Part shown: positions 54,450 through 62,874 of the stretch, piece after piece | Layout of the letters: each line of letters starts with the position of its first letter | Numbering within the stretch: position 1 is the first letter of the stretch | Source: a bacterium | GTDB lineage: Bacteria > Actinomycetota > Acidimicrobiia > Spongiisociales > Spongiisociaceae | Reading direction: 5' to 3' | Length of the DNA stretch: 64,000 nucleotides | Assembly (NCBI GenBank): GCA_028820935.1 | Contig: JAPPHZ010000029.1 | Location: forward strand, 62,001 to 126,000 | The notes under the pieces: model-generated | Seen by the model: only the letters and a program-made list of their open reading frames with translations | Told to the model about the DNA's origin: nothing | Database searches by the model: none | Translations under genes and position numbers: made by a program

Positions 54450-55331
54450 GTGGATTACCTTCGACCCCGCACCTGGCAGGATGCGATAGCGCTGAAGACG
54501 GAGAACCCCGCCGCGGTTCCGATCAACGGCGGCACCGATCTCATGGTCGAGATCAAATTCGCGGGTCGGCGGCCGTCATGCCTGCTGGACCTTTCCCATC
54601 TCGAGGTGCTCAAGGGATGGAGCTGGAGCAACGGTACGGTCGAACTCGGCGCAAGCGTCACCTACACGGATGTGCTGGAGCACCTGGGTGGTGATCTTCC
54701 CGCCCTGGCCATTGCCTCCCGGACGGTCGGTTCGCCCCAGATCCGCAACCGCGGGACCATCGCGGGGAACCTGGCCACCGCCTCTCCCGCCGGGGATGCC
54801 CACCCGCCGTTGCTGGCCACGGGCGCGACGGTCCGGGTCGAGTCGATACGGGGGATCCGAGATGTCCCGGTCGGGCGGTTCTTCACCGGTCCCAAGCAGA
54901 ACGTGCTGGAGCCGGACGAGCTGATCAGGGCCGTCCTGGTGCCGAGGGCCCGAGGCCCTCAGCAGTTCTCCAAGGTGGGAACCCGCAACGCGATGGTGAT
55001 CGCGGTGGTCTCCTTCGCCCTCGCGTTCGACGTGCCGGGCCGCCATGTCGGGACCGGGATCGGTTCAGCGGCCCCCACCCCGATCGAGGCCGTAGATGCC
55101 GGGGCCTACCTGGATCGGGAACTCGCTCTTGGGGGGTATTGGGAGGACCATCGCAAGCTTCCCGACAGGATCGTGGACGGCTTCGCGGAGCGGGCGGCGG
55201 CCGCCGCCCGGCCGATCGACGACGTGCGCGGCCCGGCCGGGTACCGCGTTCACGCACTGCGTGTCATGGCAGGGCGGACCCTCCGCTGGGCCTGGTCGGC
55301 CCTGGCGACGGGTGGAACCCGTGCTCATTGA
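54450..55331 (+). CDS. Molybdenum hydroxylase FAD-binding subunit (CoxM/XdhB type)
   Basis: This 293-residue protein carries the FAD of a three-subunit xanthine-dehydrogenase-type enzyme. FAD motifs are visible: AVPINGGTDLMVEIKF near residue 30 and SPQIRNRGTIAGNLATASPAGD near residue 95. It starts at GTG 54450 and overlaps the [2Fe-2S] subunit gene by 11 bp. The order FAD, [2Fe-2S], large subunit is that of Cox/Xdh operons, here with a GTPase gene inserted before the large subunit. Confidence 0.92.
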   Translation: MDYLRPRTWQDAIALKTENPAAVPINGGTDLMVEIKFAGRRPSCLLDLSHLEVLKGWSWSNGTVELGASVTYTDVLEHLGGDLPALAIASRTVGSPQIRNRGTIAGNLATASPAGDAHPPLLATGATVRVESIRGIRDVPVGRFFTGPKQNVLEPDELIRAVLVPRARGPQQFSKVGTRNAMVIAVVSFALAFDVPGRHVGTGIGSAAPTPIEAVDAGAYLDRELALGGYWEDHRKLPDRIVDGFAERAAAAARPIDDVRGPAGYRVHALRVMAGRTLRWAWSALATGGTRAH

Positions 55332-55791
55332 GCTGACGGTGAACGGCAGGAGCCGCACGGCCGAGAACGTCCGGGCCGGGGAGAGCCTGCTGTACGTCCT
55401 GAGGGAGCACCTCGGTCTGAGGGGTTCCAAGGACGCTTGCGAGCAGGGTGAGTGCGGCTCATGTTCTGTATACCTGAACGGTGACCTCGTCTGCGCGTGC
55501 CTGGTGTCGGCCGGCCAGGCGGATGGCGCGGAGGTGGTGACGGTGGAGGGTCTATCGGACGGGGAGACGCTCCATCCAATCCAGCAGGCATACGTGTCCG
55601 AGGGAGCGGTCCAGTGCGGCTTCTGCACGCCCGGGCTGGTCGTCGCCACCCACTGCCTGCTCGATGCCAACTCCGATCCCTCCGACGACGAGATACGTGA
55701 GGCCCTGGCCGGCAACCTCTGCCGGTGCACCGGCTACGAGAAGATCGTCTCCGCCGTCCGGCTGGCTGCGACGGAGACGGCGGCCGGATGA
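55321..55791 (+). CDS. Molybdenum hydroxylase [2Fe-2S] subunit (CoxS/XdhC type)
   Basis: This protein of about 156 residues has two [2Fe-2S] clusters. The plant-type cluster is at Cys40, 45, 48 and 60 (KDACEQGECGSCSV, CAC), and the second has VQCGFCTPG and LCRCTGY. The length is normal. GTG 55321 is chosen since it starts the domain (LIELTVNGRSR). Its TGA overlaps the start of the GTPase gene by 4 bp. Confidence 0.94.
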   Translation: MLIELTVNGRSRTAENVRAGESLLYVLREHLGLRGSKDACEQGECGSCSVYLNGDLVCACLVSAGQADGAEVVTVEGLSDGETLHPIQQAYVSEGAVQCGFCTPGLVVATHCLLDANSDPSDDEIREALAGNLCRCTGYEKIVSAVRLAATETAAG

Positions 55792-56783
55792 GTTCGGCGT
55801 CCGTCCAATCCCGGCCCGGCCCGAGCGTCACCGTCCTGACCGGCTTCCTGGGCGCCGGGAAGACCACCCTCGTCAACCACCTTCTCTCCACGGACCACGG
55901 TCGGCGCATCGCGGTGATAGTGAACGAGATGGGCGAGATCGGAATCGACGGAGATCTCATCGTCTCCTCCGAAGAGGAGATAATCGAGATGGCCAACGGG
56001 TGTGTCTGCTGCACGCTGTCGGTTCGCAACGATCTGGCCGCCATGATCCGTAAGCTGCTGGCCCGCCCCGAGCCGCCCGACTACGTGGTCATCGAGACCA
56101 GCGGCGTTGCCGATCCGGTGCCGGTCACCCAGGCGCTCTTCGTCGAAGGCCTGGCCGATCGCATAGGAGTCGACGGGATCGTGACCATGGTCGACGCCAA
56201 GCACGTGGACGCCCATCTGGACGCGTTCGGCCCGGACCGGCCCGACAGCCGGGTGGTGGACCAGATCCTGTGCGCCGACCGCATCGTGCTCAACAAGACG
56301 GATCTCGTCGGGCCCGATGCCCTGCGGAAGACGGAGGCTCGGATCAGCGGACTCAACAACACCGCCCCGGTTATCAGATCGTGCTACTCCAGGGTGGACC
56401 CGGATGAGATTCTCGGGATCGAGGCCTTCGGTGGATCGCCGGTGTCGACAGGCGGCGGGTTCCTCGAGGACACCTACGTCCACTCCCGGGATCCGGGCGT
56501 GGAGGCCATCAGTATCGAGGTCCACGGCGAGTTGGACGGGGCCAGGCTGAGGGAGTGGCTGGAGGCTCTCACCGGGGCGCGATCCGCCGACATCTACCGC
56601 ATCAAGGGCATCCTCGCCGTGGCTGGGCAGCCGCGCCAGACCATCCTCCAAGGGGTCCACCGGCTGTTCGAGATCTATCCGGGCGGGCGATGGTCGGGCA
56701 ACCGGAGCAGCCGGCTGGTCTTCATCGGCCGTGATCTCGATGGCCGGATGCTGCGGTCCGGGCTGGAGGGCTGCCGCGCGTGA
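55788..56783 (+). CDS. CobW/G3E family GTPase in the Mo-hydroxylase operon
   Basis: This protein of about 331 residues has Walker A GFLGAGKTT at residues 19-27, the metal motif CVCC at residues 72-75 (NGCVCCTLS), the switch region ETSGVADPVPV and the guanine motif NKTD. A C-terminal CobW-C-like domain follows. G3E GTPases are metallochaperones for Zn, Co or Ni proteins. It overlaps both neighbours by a few bases, so it is made together with the molybdenum enzyme. A link to Mo-cofactor or metal supply is inferred and unusual. Confidence 0.9.
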   Translation: MSSASVQSRPGPSVTVLTGFLGAGKTTLVNHLLSTDHGRRIAVIVNEMGEIGIDGDLIVSSEEEIIEMANGCVCCTLSVRNDLAAMIRKLLARPEPPDYVVIETSGVADPVPVTQALFVEGLADRIGVDGIVTMVDAKHVDAHLDAFGPDRPDSRVVDQILCADRIVLNKTDLVGPDALRKTEARISGLNNTAPVIRSCYSRVDPDEILGIEAFGGSPVSTGGGFLEDTYVHSRDPGVEAISIEVHGELDGARLREWLEALTGARSADIYRIKGILAVAGQPRQTILQGVHRLFEIYPGGRWSGNRSSRLVFIGRDLDGRMLRSGLEGCRA

Positions 56784-59131
56784 TGAGGCCCCACCAGCAA
56801 CTGGACACGAAGGTTCGTGACCGCAAGACCCACGCCCGCGGGGTCGGCGCGTCACCCCCGCGGCCCGACGCGCCGCTCAAGGTGCTGGGCCGCTTCGCCT
56901 ACGCCTCGGACCTCCACATCGACGGCATGCTGTGGGGCGCCACGGTGAGGAGTCCGCACCCGAGGGCCCGCATCATGGGTATCGATGTCTCCCAGGCCCT
57001 GACGATCCGGGGGGTTGCCACCGTGCTGACCGCCGAGGATGTTCCGGGGCACCGTTTCTACGGCATCAAGGTGGCGGACCAGCCTGTGCTGGCCGCCCAC
57101 GAAGTCCGGTATGTGGGCGAGCCGGTGGCGATCGTGGCCGCCGACCATCCCGAAACAGCCCGCCGGGCGGTCGAGGCCGTCCGCGTCGACTACGAGGTGC
57201 AGGCACCGCTGACCGACCCGGAGTCCGCGCTGTCGGGTGCCGGAGATCCGATCGACCCGGGCGGGAACGTGGCGCGCCATGTACGCATCCGCCACGGGGA
57301 CGTTGCCACCGCCAGGTCACGGGCGGAGGTGGTGGTGCGACGGGAGTACACCTCAGGGGTCCAGGATCCGGCCTTCCTGGGCCCGGAAGCCGGTCTGGCG
57401 GTGCCCGACGGCAGCGGCGGTATCGACCTGTACGTGGCGGCGCAGTGGATCCACGACGACCGGCGCCAGGTGGCAGCAGCTCTCGGGCTGGATCCGAGCC
57501 GGGTACGACTGACCCTGAGCGGGGTCGGCGGGGCCTTCGGAGGCAGGGAGGACCTGTCGGTGCATATCCATGCCTGCATGCTGGCGCTGCGGATGGGCCG
57601 CCCCGTCAAGATGTCCTATGACCGGGCGGAGTCGTTCGTCGGCCATGTCCATCGGCACCCCTCCCGTATCCGGGTCGAACTGGGCGCCCGCCGGGACGGA
57701 ACCCTGGTCTACTCCACAGTGAGGCTCCTGCTGGACGGCGGCGCCTACACGTCCACCTCGCAGATCGTCATAGCCAACGCCTCCTACTTCGCCGCCGGCG
57801 CCTACAAGGTCGACCATGTGGAGATCGACGGTTACGCCGTCTACACCAACAACCCTCCCCGGGGGGCCATGCGCGGCTTCGGGGCGGTGCAGGCCTGTTA
57901 CGCCATCGAATCGGCCATGGATCGCCTCGCCGGGGAACTGGACATGGATCCGGTCGACCTGAGGGTCCGCAATGCCATACAGGAGGGAGACCTCCTACCC
58001 ACCGGGCAGGAGGTTGACGGTCCCACCCCCACTCGCGAGCTCCTGGGACACCTGCGCCGCCTTCCGCTGCCCCCCGAGCGCCCTGCGGCAGGGGAGGACC
58101 TGAGGCGCCTGCCCGGCGGGGTGGGCAACACCACTCATGGGGAGGCGGTGGTCCGGGGGGTCGGCTACGCCCTCGGGATGAAGGCGATCGGCTTCTCCGG
58201 AGGCGTGGACGACATCTCCACCGCCCGGGTGTCGGTCTCGGTAGCGGGTGGCCGGCCGGTGGCGGAGGTCTACAGCGCCGCCTCTGAGTGCGGGCAGGGC
58301 ATCGTGGCGGTGCAGGCCCAGATCGTGCGGACCGAGTTGGGGATCGACTCGGTCACCGTCCGGCCCGCTGACACGGACATCGGGGACGCCGGCTCGTCGG
58401 CGGCCTCCCGCCAGACCTGGATGACCGGCGGAGCGGTCCAAGGTGCCTGTCACGGCGTGCGGGATCGGATCCTGGAACGGGCCGCCCGACGCCTCGGTTG
58501 CTCTCCGGGAGATCTTGCCCTCACACCCCATGGAATCACGGTTCCCGGCAAGGGGGAGGCCCTCGTCAGTCTCGCCGACCTCCTGGGCGATGACTCGATC
58601 GAGCACACCTTCGTGTACCACCACCGGCCTACCGAACCCATCGATGACGTGCGGGGCCAGGGCAATGCCCACATCGCCTTCGCCTACGCCGCCCACCGGG
58701 CGGTGGTCGATGTGGACACCGAGTTGGGTCTGGTCCGGTTGGTCGAGCTGGCCACCGCCCAGGATGTGGGGAAGGCCATCAACCCCCAGGCCGTCGAGGG
58801 ACAGATCGAAGGCGGTTCTGCCCAGGGTCTCGGCCTCGCCCTGCTGGAGGAGGTTCAGGTCGAGGACGGCCTCGTGAAGAACGCCTCGTTCACCGACTAC
58901 CTGATCCCCACCATCCTTGACATGCCTCCCATGAACGTCCGGCTCTTCGAGTTCCCCCATCCCGACTCCCCCTACGGGCTCAACGGGGTAGGGGAGCCCC
59001 CCACGCTGTCCTCCACCCCGGCCATCGTCAACGCCCTGCGCGACGCCACCGGCCTCGACCTCCCGCGAGTCCCCGTCCGGCCGACCGATCTGATCGCCTC
59101 TCTCCAAGGCGATGGCTCTCGGGGAGAATAG
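56780..59131 (+). CDS. Molybdenum hydroxylase large subunit (xanthine dehydrogenase type)
   Basis: This 783-residue protein holds the molybdopterin cofactor and active site. The N-terminal domain reads PDAPLKVLGRFAYASDLH; the Mo-binding region has GVGGAFGGRED, NPPRGAMRGFGAVQ, and ECGQGIVAVQAQ; the catalytic Glu is in NGVGEPPTLSSTP near the C-terminus. The active-site loop AMRGFG is that of xanthine-dehydrogenase-type enzymes, not the Cys-containing loop of CO dehydrogenase. Purines or other N-heterocycles are likely substrates. Start GTG 56780 or ATG 56783. Confidence 0.92.
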   Translation: MMRPHQQLDTKVRDRKTHARGVGASPPRPDAPLKVLGRFAYASDLHIDGMLWGATVRSPHPRARIMGIDVSQALTIRGVATVLTAEDVPGHRFYGIKVADQPVLAAHEVRYVGEPVAIVAADHPETARRAVEAVRVDYEVQAPLTDPESALSGAGDPIDPGGNVARHVRIRHGDVATARSRAEVVVRREYTSGVQDPAFLGPEAGLAVPDGSGGIDLYVAAQWIHDDRRQVAAALGLDPSRVRLTLSGVGGAFGGREDLSVHIHACMLALRMGRPVKMSYDRAESFVGHVHRHPSRIRVELGARRDGTLVYSTVRLLLDGGAYTSTSQIVIANASYFAAGAYKVDHVEIDGYAVYTNNPPRGAMRGFGAVQACYAIESAMDRLAGELDMDPVDLRVRNAIQEGDLLPTGQEVDGPTPTRELLGHLRRLPLPPERPAAGEDLRRLPGGVGNTTHGEAVVRGVGYALGMKAIGFSGGVDDISTARVSVSVAGGRPVAEVYSAASECGQGIVAVQAQIVRTELGIDSVTVRPADTDIGDAGSSAASRQTWMTGGAVQGACHGVRDRILERAARRLGCSPGDLALTPHGITVPGKGEALVSLADLLGDDSIEHTFVYHHRPTEPIDDVRGQGNAHIAFAYAAHRAVVDVDTELGLVRLVELATAQDVGKAINPQAVEGQIEGGSAQGLGLALLEEVQVEDGLVKNASFTDYLIPTILDMPPMNVRLFEFPHPDSPYGLNGVGEPPTLSSTPAIVNALRDATGLDLPRVPVRPTDLIASLQGDGSRGE

Positions 59132-59190: not shown

Positions 59191-59628
59191 TTAGCCGACA
59201 TCTAGGAGCGGGTTGTGCCATCGCAGTCCTGGGAAGCGGGCGAAGTCACCGTCGTTGGAGTGGACCTGGGCTTGGTGTTCGATGGCCAGTGCGGCGATGT
59301 GGGCGTCGGTGACGAGGTTCCCGCCCACGCCGACGGCGGCCAGCAAGTTGCGGAAGATGGCGAGGTGCTGAGTGCCCGGATTCAACGGCGTGACGCTGGA
59401 TGAGCGGAACCACTCGGCCACGAGGTCGGCCGCGTGCTCTGGTGCCGCCGGGTCGCGCAGCACCGCGGGATGGGTAAGCAGCCGCACGAACCCTGTCGCC
59501 ACGAGCCAAGGAACCCCTACTCGCTCGGTTCCGTTCACCAAGTCCTCCCACCACCGGCGTGCCGGCTGGTGCAGCGGCGCGCCGGCGGCGTGGGCGTACA
59601 CGAGCAGGTTTAGGTCTGGGACGATCAC
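59191..59628 (-). CDS. vapC: PIN-domain toxin (VapC family)
   Basis: This 145-residue PIN-domain protein should be an RNase toxin. The acidic residues are visible: Asp5 (IVPDLNLLVYAH), a mid-domain acidic region, Asp in LVTDAHIAALA and Asp in VHSNDGDFARF. It overlaps the antitoxin gene by ATGA, the standard VapBC layout. The target RNA is unknown. Confidence 0.92.
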   Translation of the reverse strand: MIVPDLNLLVYAHAAGAPLHQPARRWWEDLVNGTERVGVPWLVATGFVRLLTHPAVLRDPAAPEHAADLVAEWFRSSSVTPLNPGTQHLAIFRNLLAAVGVGGNLVTDAHIAALAIEHQAQVHSNDGDFARFPGLRWHNPLLDVG

Positions 59629-59882
59629 TGCGCCTGCGGGCCGGGGAATCCGCCGACCTCGAGCGAGTCGTTGAGTTGGTTGAGTCGCATCGGATCGACG
59701 CCGGGCCTGAACCCGCTCGGGTGGGGATCGACAAGGTAGCGCGGCGCGGTCTCGACGAGCGCGGGGGACAGGCCCCGTCTCAAGGTGTCGTTGACCACCT
59801 TCTTGAACGGCTGGTCTGTGCGCTGGGCTTGTTCCTTGAGGGCATCAGCCAGATCGTCATCAAGAGTCAGAGTCGTACGCAT
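59625..59882 (-). CDS. vapB: Ribbon-helix-helix antitoxin (VapB family)
   Basis: This 85-residue protein has an N-terminal ribbon-helix-helix (MRTTLTLDDDLADALKEQA) that binds DNA, and a C-terminal tail (FRPGVDPMRLNQLNDSLE) expected to wrap around and inhibit the toxin. It starts at ATG 59882, 5 bp from a perfect 34-bp palindrome that is the probable operator for autoregulation. Confidence 0.9.
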   Translation of the reverse strand: MRTTLTLDDDLADALKEQAQRTDQPFKKVVNDTLRRGLSPALVETAPRYLVDPHPSGFRPGVDPMRLNQLNDSLEVGGFPGPQAQ

Positions 59883-60005: not shown

Positions 60006-61160
60006 CTAGCGGCGGAGCAGTTGCTTGATCCGGCGGGCGGCCGGGGTCCATAGCCACTCGGGTTCGGTGAACCGGCGATGGTCCTCACCGGGCAAGCCCA
60101 TGGGGTCGTAGTAGCTCTTGCCGGAGTTCTTACGCAGGTAGCTCGTCCGCCTCAGCACCTTCAGGGAGGCATAGATCGTTCCCTTGTGGGTCCAGCCCTG
60201 CCGCAGGTAGTTCCAGTTGTCGGGCGCCAGATGCTGCGCCGCGGCGAAGTACCGCCAAGCACGCTGGCTGTCGCCCACCGACTCGAAGTGAAGCGCCAGC
60301 CTGAACGTCGCTTCTGCCAGGCGCAAGTTGTCGTCGACGGGCTTGAGCTGCTCGGCGAGTTCCTGGCTCGACCAGACGTGGCGGCTGTCGGCTCCCTTCT
60401 CGATCCAGTCGCGAGTCGCCTCGGCAAATGCGTCGTCGCCCACGCGAACCTTGCCGAGGCCGAATCTGATCGTCGTCTCGGCCGGGTACGTCCCTTCGTT
60501 GCTGCGAACGATGCGTCCCTCTTCGTCTATCCACGCGGCCGACGGCACGCTCACCCAGCCGAACAGCGAACTGATCTGGTGGGTCGGGTCGACGACGCAC
60601 CGGTAGGTCGGGGAGGCTCGTTCAAACCACTTGTCGACAGCTGTGGCGCCTCCGGAGTCCTGAGCCACGCTGATCAACTCGAACCGGTCCGACCCGATGG
60701 ATTCGTACAGATCCTGCCAGTCCGGCAGGCTGAAGCGGCACCCTCACCAGGATGACCAGGTGAACAGCACCACCTTGTGGCCGCGCAGGTCCGAGAGCCT
60801 TAACGTGTCGCCGTTCCGCTCGGTCACCTCGAAGTCGGGGGCGATAGCGCTCTCCAGCCCGGCGCGCCGGACCTCGGGCACCGAGCCGAGGCTCCACACG
60901 TCGCCGTCATGCGCGTACTTCTGGCCGATCATGTCCGCGAACTCCGAGTAGCAGAACCAGACCCAGTCGTCGGCGTCCGCGATCCACTCCTCGCGCTTGC
61001 CCGCCGGCAGCGGCACGCACAAATCGCCCAGGCAGGCGCCTTGAGGCTTCATCTGCCAGCCGGTGGCGCGAGGGAGTTCGTCCATCCGCACCCATAGGGC
61101 CCCAGCGGGATCGGTCCGCCGCGTGACCTGGTTCGTCTTGCCGTTTGCGAGGATGATCAT
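60006..61160 (-). CDS. Predicted selenoprotein: redoxin/TlpA-like protein with in-frame TGA (Sec139)
   Basis: Read through one TGA at 60744-60746, this is a single 384-residue protein. An N-terminal region has a Cys pair (GACLGDLCVPLP, Cys43 and Cys48). Residues about 105-235 are an AhpC/TlpA-type thioredoxin fold (APDFEVTERNGDTLRLSDLRGHKVVLF, then the active site WSSW-Sec-GCR, then FSLPDWQDLYESIG and FELISVAQD). A C-terminal helical, TPR-like part follows (LAEATFRLALHFESVGDSQRAW). Frame and homology are unbroken on both sides of TGA. The start ATG 61160 has GGAG 5 nt upstream. A SECIS-like hairpin follows the TGA. Without Sec machinery it would be a pseudogene or two fragments. Confidence 0.85.
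60708..60732 (-). promoter_or_regulatory. Bacterial SECIS-like stem-loop after the in-frame TGA
   Basis: On the minus strand CAG-CCTGCC and GGCAGG-AT-CTG pair around the apical loop GGACT, a 9-bp stem with a 2-nt bulge. Twenty nucleotides separate TGA from the loop, and G occupies the first two loop positions. Known bacterial SECIS elements lie within the coding region with the loop about 16-37 nt after UGA and a G at the loop start, and bind SelB. The match is by eye, not by a folding program. Confidence 0.7.
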
Positions 61161-61437
61161 GCTTGCTCCGCGAGAGCCGATTCGGCCGGCCAGGTGGGTG
61201 CTTCGCCGTGCGTCAGGCTCGAGTAGTACCTGACGGTAGTGCTCGCCGGCGACGAAGGCCATTGGGCCATGGCCGGCCATCACGAACCGCCACGGATTGG
61301 AGACGCGCCCTTCGTTCCCGACGGTGGGTGTGCCAGGGACGGACTGCGCCAGGTTGCGAGGGTGATCGGATGCCCTCCTATTCGGGTCGGGGCAGCCCCA
61401 TTGGTACCGTGCGGACCCGCTCGGGAGTGCCGAGGGG
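61161..61437. other. Gap between divergent selenoprotein and lipoprotein genes
   Basis: This 277-bp region must carry both divergent promoters. An open frame continues upstream of the selenoprotein start, but it shows no family similarity and I treat it as non-coding. No clear operator repeat is visible. Confidence 0.4.
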
Positions 61438-61455
61438 GTGACTCTCATAGAGGGG

Positions 61456-62874
61456 ATGAATCGTGCGGTCAGCAGGGAAGAGACGCGGTCGGTGAGGGTG
61501 GGTCGAGTCGGTCTGGGCTTGTTGGGCGCGGCCTTGGCGTCCGTATTCGTTGCGGCGTGTGGGCCAGGGGATGATCCGTCGACGTCGGGGGCTTCAGTCG
61601 AGTCGACCCTCGCCTCCGGGACCTCGGCCGGAACGACCGCGGTTTCGACCGCGCCGGCCCCGGTTGTCGAGACGGGTCTCGACAGCGTGTCGGCAAACGC
61701 GCGTTCCCTCGTCGACAGTTGGCTGTCCGCGGTGTCGGAGTCGGGTGGCGCGTGGCCGGGTTACGACCTTGGCGACATCCCGACCGTGTTGGTCTCGGTC
61801 GACGTCGGCGGGAGGATCGAGGCTGTGGTGGCTTTCAACCACCCGAGTCCGGACGCTCTGGGGGAGGCGATCCTCGATGTTGAGGTGGACGGCCACCGGG
61901 TGGCGGTCGTCGGGGAGCCGGCCGACCCGGAGAGGCTGCTCTCTCTGGCGCCGTTCGACTTCTTCGCGGACATAGGCGGCGTCCAGACGTACGTGTTGGT
62001 AGCCCAGCGGGGAGAGCCGGGCCGCGAGCCGGACGCGCCGGGGTTCGTGGCGATGGTCGCCCACGAGGGGTTCCACCGGTACCAGTTCGACAACTGGGCC
62101 CCCGGCGCAGCCGTCCAGGACGTCGAGGGATACGACTTCGGGGCGGAGAACCTCGAGTTGGTCCTGCTCGAGAACCGGATACTGGTCGCTGCCTACCAGG
62201 CACGCACGGTGGCGGAAACCGAGCGGCTGGGCCGCCAGTTCGCGGCGGTACGTGCCGCCCGGCACGAGCGGGATCCCAGGGTTGCACTCGATGAGGAGCA
62301 GGAACGTATGGAGGGGTCGGCCCGATGGATCGAGCACCGGATGGGCGACGCAATCGGGAACACCTACGCCTCCACCAACCACACCAGCGAACTCGGCTAC
62401 CTCGATGAGAGCATCGGCGACCCTGGGGCGGTGCTGGGCAACGTCAAGTCGTTCTTCGGGTTCGGACGTTTCTACAGCAGCGGCGCCACCGTGCTGGCTC
62501 TGCTCGAGCGCATCGGTGTGGCCGGCGCCGAGGTTGCTGAACGGCTCGGGGATGGTGATGCACCTGCCCAGTTGCTGGCACAGCGCATCGCTCCTCTAGG
62601 CGACCGCGACCACCTCGTAGCCGCGGCCTGGGCCGAGCACGATCCGGACGGCCGCCTAGGCGTGGCCGCGGCGGCTCTCGCCGAACTCGCGGCTGGCGAG
62701 GGGGAAACCGACTTCGGCGCCGGCGCCGTTCCTGAAGAGACACTCGGACCCGGTTTCGAGGTCAGCGAAGACCAGATTGCCTGCCTTCAGGACCATGGGC
62801 TCGACCTGAGCGCGGACAGCGTCACGATCTCCGACGATATCGCGAGTGCCTGTCTCGGCGACTCCGGATCCTGA
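61456..62874 (+). CDS. Secreted lipoprotein with HExxH motif (putative metallopeptidase)
   Basis: This protein of about 472 residues has a signal peptide with lipobox (VFVAAC), a Ser/Thr/Ala-rich linker, and a globular domain with HEGFH in MVAHEGFHRYQFDNW. A downstream Glu-containing helix (ENLELVLLENRILVAAY) could supply the third zinc ligand, as in gluzincins. The family is not recognised. Start ATG 61456 or GTG 61438. It is divergent from the selenoprotein gene. Extracytoplasmic proteolysis is inferred only from the motif. Confidence 0.75.
   Translation: MNRAVSREETRSVRVGRVGLGLLGAALASVFVAACGPGDDPSTSGASVESTLASGTSAGTTAVSTAPAPVVETGLDSVSANARSLVDSWLSAVSESGGAWPGYDLGDIPTVLVSVDVGGRIEAVVAFNHPSPDALGEAILDVEVDGHRVAVVGEPADPERLLSLAPFDFFADIGGVQTYVLVAQRGEPGREPDAPGFVAMVAHEGFHRYQFDNWAPGAAVQDVEGYDFGAENLELVLLENRILVAAYQARTVAETERLGRQFAAVRAARHERDPRVALDEEQERMEGSARWIEHRMGDAIGNTYASTNHTSELGYLDESIGDPGAVLGNVKSFFGFGRFYSSGATVLALLERIGVAGAEVAERLGDGDAPAQLLAQRIAPLGDRDHLVAAAWAEHDPDGRLGVAAAALAELAAGEGETDFGAGAVPEETLGPGFEVSEDQIACLQDHGLDLSADSVTISDDIASACLGDSGS

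Follow-up and report, generated by a model that had tools for sequence, protein, structure and literature searches.

The minus-strand gene at positions 60006-61160 of the window (the whole 64-kb stretch of DNA analysed, to which all positions refer unless stated) encodes, with near certainty, a selenoprotein in which the TGA at codon 139 (60744-60746) is read as selenocysteine. Its product is very probably a redox protein of thioredoxin fold, and this fold and the motif around the TGA make a thiol or peroxide oxidoreductase activity likely. The protein belongs to a divergent acidimicrobial clade of an already recognized selenoprotein family.

A single conserved TGA at codon 139

The gene comprises 384 codons and ends in TAG. 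Its ATG at 61160 is preceded at a distance of 5 nt by GGAG (61166-61169), a probable Shine-Dalgarno sequence, in keeping with the ribosome site proposed in the initial annotation. That annotation had also described one in-frame TGA within a WSSW-U-GCR motif and a pair of N-terminal cysteines, Cys43 (61032-61034) and Cys48 (61017-61019), and each of these features was found as described. Codon 139 corresponds to the first residue of the CxxC motif in TlpA/ResA, and Cys141 (60738-60740) completes a Sec-Gly-Cys center.

A comparison with 98 relatives from within the order revealed full-length homologs in 12 (77-91% identity) and distant homologs in two (30-33%). The 12 full-length proteins align from residue 1 or 2 through to the end, so that similarity does continue on both sides of the TGA, and each of their genes contains exactly one internal stop, always TGA; the two distant homologs likewise have one internal TGA at the matching place. 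Within the same genus, selA is present in assemblies G004 and G009, where a full-length copy of the selenoprotein gene was not found, reflecting either gene loss or incomplete assemblies. Assembly G001 of this genus carries the TGA gene and gave no selA match, for which the same two explanations apply.

A wider set of 80 homologous loci (32-91% identity) was obtained by scanning named genomes, and codon 139 was mapped in each via tblastn. The set spans Actinomycetota, Pseudomonadota, Acidobacteriota, Chloroflexota, Planctomycetota and others, and its closest named members come from metagenome assemblies of Acidimicrobiia (L049, L051), which makes an acidimicrobial source of the window most likely. 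TGA stands at codon 139 in 73 of the 80 and TGC, encoding Cys, in the remaining seven; other codons were not seen (0/80). Every relative with at least 55% identity has TGA. A maximum-likelihood tree places 32 close rows in one clade with support of 100/100 and requires four changes to account for the Cys state. The Cys homologs retain the full length of the protein. Residues W135, S137, W138, G140, C141, C43 and C48 are invariant in all 81 sequences, window protein included, whereas position 136 is Ser in 42 of the 81, so that WSSW, as in the window protein, stands beside WASW and the family motif reads W[SA]SWUGC. Median dN/dS over 29 relatives is 0.25 upstream of the TGA and 0.25 downstream.

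Selenocysteine machinery of the host genome

The host assembly (3.3 Mb, 51 contigs, 97% complete) contains all four genes for which the initial annotation had suggested a search, selA, selB, selC and selD. On contig 10 selA (429 bits) adjoins selB (321 bits), a tRNA-Sec with anticodon UCA lies on contig 14 (77 bits) and selD lies on contig 36 (380 bits), all above the curated cut-offs. The selD gene (G000:C36:58143-59072) has an in-frame TGA after GGG near its N-terminus (positions 1531-1533 of locus L047) and is itself a probable selenoprotein gene. The formate dehydrogenase alpha subunit gene fdhA (G000:C11:43384-45237, contig 11) also has an in-frame TGA (1723-1725 of locus L132), followed by HAPSVAGLA, the usual selenocysteine context of FdhA. 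With in-frame TGA codons in selD and fdhA as well, the genome would hold at least three selenoprotein genes.

Elsewhere in the family, selA was detected in 11 of the 13 sampled TGA-form genomes and in three of six Cys-form genomes (G099, G100, G103). TGA-bearing assemblies that gave no selA match are G001, G115 and G117, and incomplete assembly is the simplest explanation for all three.

A putative SECIS hairpin downstream of the TGA

Bacterial SECIS elements are hairpins a short way downstream of the TGA whose small apical loop contains a conserved G (PMC1088965). The window gene has a small-loop hairpin of this kind, the putative SECIS CCUGCC-GGACU-GGCAGG at 60713-60729, with a 6-bp stem and a 5-nt loop (60719-60723). 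Counting the T of TGA as base 1, bases 18-23 pair with bases 29-34 and the loop starts at base 24. The initial annotation had cited a SECIS-like hairpin in favor of selenocysteine; the hairpin is there, but its presence by itself argues little, since a loosely defined SECIS-like hairpin follows 166 of 364 codons (46%) of the same gene. Its folding energy is unremarkable against shuffled sequences (z -0.8 to +0.1), and its stability does not exceed that of synonymous recodings (z -0.41). Compensatory changes did not exceed those in shuffles. The outer pairs are unpaired in many sequences, and gammaproteobacterial members do not preserve the outer two pairs of the stem. An Rfam gathering scan of the window gave no match.

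It is the comparative data that make the hairpin convincing, through conservation of its core, its loop G and the synonymous codons beneath it, and through nearly the same loop in host fdhA and selD. All 74 TGA genes (window gene included) retain the core pairs 20-32 to 23-29, compared with three of seven Cys genes, and loop base 25 is G in 74/74 compared with 4/7, counts drawn from sequences related by descent and not independent; a test corrected for phylogeny, asking whether the hairpin is lost with the change to Cys, has only four changes to draw on, too few for a sign test. Codon 145, encoding Leu or Val, ends in G in all 74 TGA genes where 55% would be expected, and the Ser-Leu-Pro codons 144-146 are fixed in the close clade, where they show the strongest synonymous constraint of 105 triples. 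A conserved L-P-x-W-Q peptide accounts for some of the hairpin conservation, though not for the third base of codon 145 or for codons 144-146. All Sec forms have Val, Gly or Asp at residue 147; in the Cys forms Leu, Ile or Ala occur there as well.

A GGUCU loop on a 6-bp stem is shared by host fdhA (GUCGCC-GGUCU-GGCGGC), host selD (GGCGCA-GGUCU-UGCGCC) and 29 family members, including most close relatives; the window gene has GGACU in place of GGUCU, as do four near relatives. The loop motif was chosen after the family had been inspected, but fdhA and selD encode proteins that bear no relation to the window protein. What the three genes have in common is an in-frame TGA followed by such a hairpin, with the loop starting at base 22 in fdhA, 36 in selD and 24 in the window gene. 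For GG-N-CT hairpins with a 6-bp stem, 0.0016 would be expected per 25-position stretch, and a GGTCT hairpin with a 6-bp stem was absent from both strands of the window. The E. coli-type SECIS ggttgcaggtctgcacc likewise has a GGUCU loop (PMC3834832).

Domain organization and predicted location

A structure model built from 54 diverse sequences reached a pLDDT of 89.7; an earlier model from 15 close sequences was of low quality (pLDDT 64.6) and its matches served only as a check. The central part, residues about 101-260 (60381-60860), is a thioredoxin-fold domain of the AhpC-TSA/ResA type, matched by Pfam AhpC-TSA (PF00578) over residues 106-218 (E 5.9e-17) and also by Redoxin. The best solved structures for this domain, matched over residues about 101-255, are a DsbE-like protein (3gl3, Z 17.1) and ResA (Z 16.4), in a PDB comparison dominated by the thioredoxin domain in which residues 1-97 and 261-384 are barely covered.

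The N-terminal domain (residues 1-100, 60861-61160) carries Cys43 and Cys48, and searched on its own against Pfam at E up to 5 it yielded no credible family. Its strand pattern raises the suspicion of a fold like that of the copper-amine-oxidase N domain. The C-terminal region (residues about 265-345, 60126-60368) is helical and TPR-like, as the initial annotation had suggested: it forms helices in the model and Pfam TPR_2 matches 39 of 54 relatives, although not, at a significant level, the window protein itself. Hydropathy gave no membrane segment or signal peptide (maximum 19-residue value 0.69), and this lack of a membrane-type hydrophobic segment points to a cytoplasmic location.

Relationship to known families

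The window protein matches the NCBIfam model NF041054 (WAxxUGC_long, “ResA-like WAxxUGC motif-containing protein”) with E 4.5e-75 and 253 bits, below the cut-off of 300. Residues 24-328 align to model positions 8-322 of 354; the Sec-Gly-Cys motif is common to both, and the match does not extend to the C-terminal ~55 residues of the window protein. All sequences of the first alignment matched this model. Across 138 genomes of the order no match exceeded the cut-off, and 19 TGA-containing matches scored 175-258 bits, well above ordinary TlpA proteins at 57 bits or less. A single family tree holds both members that pass the cut-off (L110, L114, L117, L118) and the acidimicrobial clade that fails it. 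Because the score falls short of the cut-off while passing and failing members share one tree, we file the window protein as part of a divergent acidimicrobial clade within a known selenoprotein family and not as an equivalog of NF041054.

The novelty implied by the initial annotation was therefore overstated. Prx-like (UGC-containing) proteins were reported among the selenoproteins of the Global Ocean Sampling project in 2008 (PMC2398784), a “UGC-containing TlpA disulfide reductase family protein” has also been described (PMC13188914), and an NCBI model exists. These published families likewise combine an AhpC-TSA/TlpA-type domain with a UGC motif, and NF041054 and the window family are, judging by motif and domain, apparently the Prx-like (UGC-containing) family of 2008. 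No function was found assigned to the UGC family in the literature located.

The fold and the position of the nucleophile are those of ResA, TlpA and DsbE, and the window protein may work in the manner of ResA. These proteins, however, have CxxC and are generally membrane-anchored or exported, whereas the window protein has U-G-C and no signal peptide; its N-terminal CxxxxC part and its TPR-like part have no counterpart in them. The thioredoxin fold is present but CxxC is replaced by UGC, and the protein is therefore not filed as ResA.

Gene neighborhood

No neighbor genes conserved across the family were found, and a plasmid search gave no match. On the plus strand at 54450-59131 lie genes for the FAD-binding, 2Fe-2S and molybdopterin subunits of a molybdenum hydroxylase, with a CobW-type GTPase gene between those for the small and large subunits. 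Molybdenum hydroxylase genes also adjoin the selenoprotein gene in the near relatives L049-L051, the large subunit in L057 as well, and in the Chloroflexi loci L110 and L112 a related frame for the large subunit is found close to the selenoprotein gene. A minus-strand PIN-domain gene (59191-59882) overlaps a small upstream gene resembling its antitoxin, in a VapBC-type arrangement. The divergent neighbor (61438-62874, plus strand) encodes a 478-residue lipoprotein-like protein with no Pfam match, in which a HEGFHRYQ stretch is reminiscent of a metallopeptidase.

Alternative explanations and proposed mechanism

Could the TGA be a defect in a Cys protein? A single change converts TGC to TGA, and TGC is the codon in the seven Cys homologs, so a pseudogene produced by nonsense mutation or by a sequencing error in TGC or TGT is conceivable. 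It is refuted to the point of being highly improbable by conservation of the TGA in many species under selection: all close relatives have it, purifying selection is equal on both sides, and the host has a complete Sec system. Sequencing error in particular is excluded in practice because 31 close named loci share the identical TGA. TGA is reassigned in some bacteria, and decoding as Trp, or as Cys by recoding, is only slightly less improbable; Cys is the sole replacement in homologs, and the genome holds tRNA-Sec, SelA, SelB and further TGA-bearing Sec genes. A regulated truncation, in which low selenium would lead to the 138 N-terminal residues with their CxxxxC pair being made as a separate protein, draws on the folded N-terminal domain of the model and its two invariant cysteines, but no stand-alone form is in evidence and the Cys homologs keep their full length, making this improbable as well.

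The remaining alternative accepts the selenoprotein and assigns it chiefly to thiol-dependent peroxidases of the Prx type instead of disulfide oxidoreductases. It has an appreciable, if lesser, chance of being correct: the AhpC-TSA and Redoxin matches and the published name Prx-like (PMC2398784) speak for it, while the nearest solved folds are ResA, DsbE and TlpA, the nearest NCBIfam model apart from NF041054 is ResA, and Sec occupies the place of the first Cys in the TlpA CxxC.

For a selenoprotein of thioredoxin fold the following course may be envisaged. SelA, SelB, tRNA-Sec and SelD would decode TGA 139 as Sec, directed by the hairpin 18-34 nt downstream, to give a cytoplasmic product of 384 residues in which a CxxxxC N-terminal domain precedes a ResA/TlpA-type thioredoxin domain and a TPR-like tail. 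Sec139, a selenolate at neutral pH, would be the nucleophile that attacks a disulfide or peroxide, and Cys141, two residues further on, would resolve the resulting intermediate as a selenenylsulfide. Electron exchange with Cys43/Cys48 and with a thiol donor of the cell would follow, and the TPR-like part would select the protein partner. The initial annotation had singled out the N-terminal Cys pair, which is invariant in 81/81, and an intramolecular electron relay through it is put forward tentatively. More speculative still is the joint reading, a two-center selenoenzyme of undescribed type in which the N-terminal CxxxxC domain communicates with the Sec-Gly-Cys center in one polypeptide, the TPR-like tail docks a client and the SECIS loop G dictates residue 147.

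Implications

The cut-off of NF041054 leaves out an entire Acidimicrobiia selenoprotein clade. Since its members score below that cut-off, annotation pipelines probably truncate them, so that the proteins would appear either to end at residue 138 or to consist of two fragments. The host genome also offers a comparative SECIS case, in which three Sec genes with no relation to one another have a nearly identical loop, and within the family some lineages that changed from Sec to Cys show a looser RNA element. For the protein itself, the invariant Cys43/Cys48 pair provides a concrete, testable relay hypothesis.
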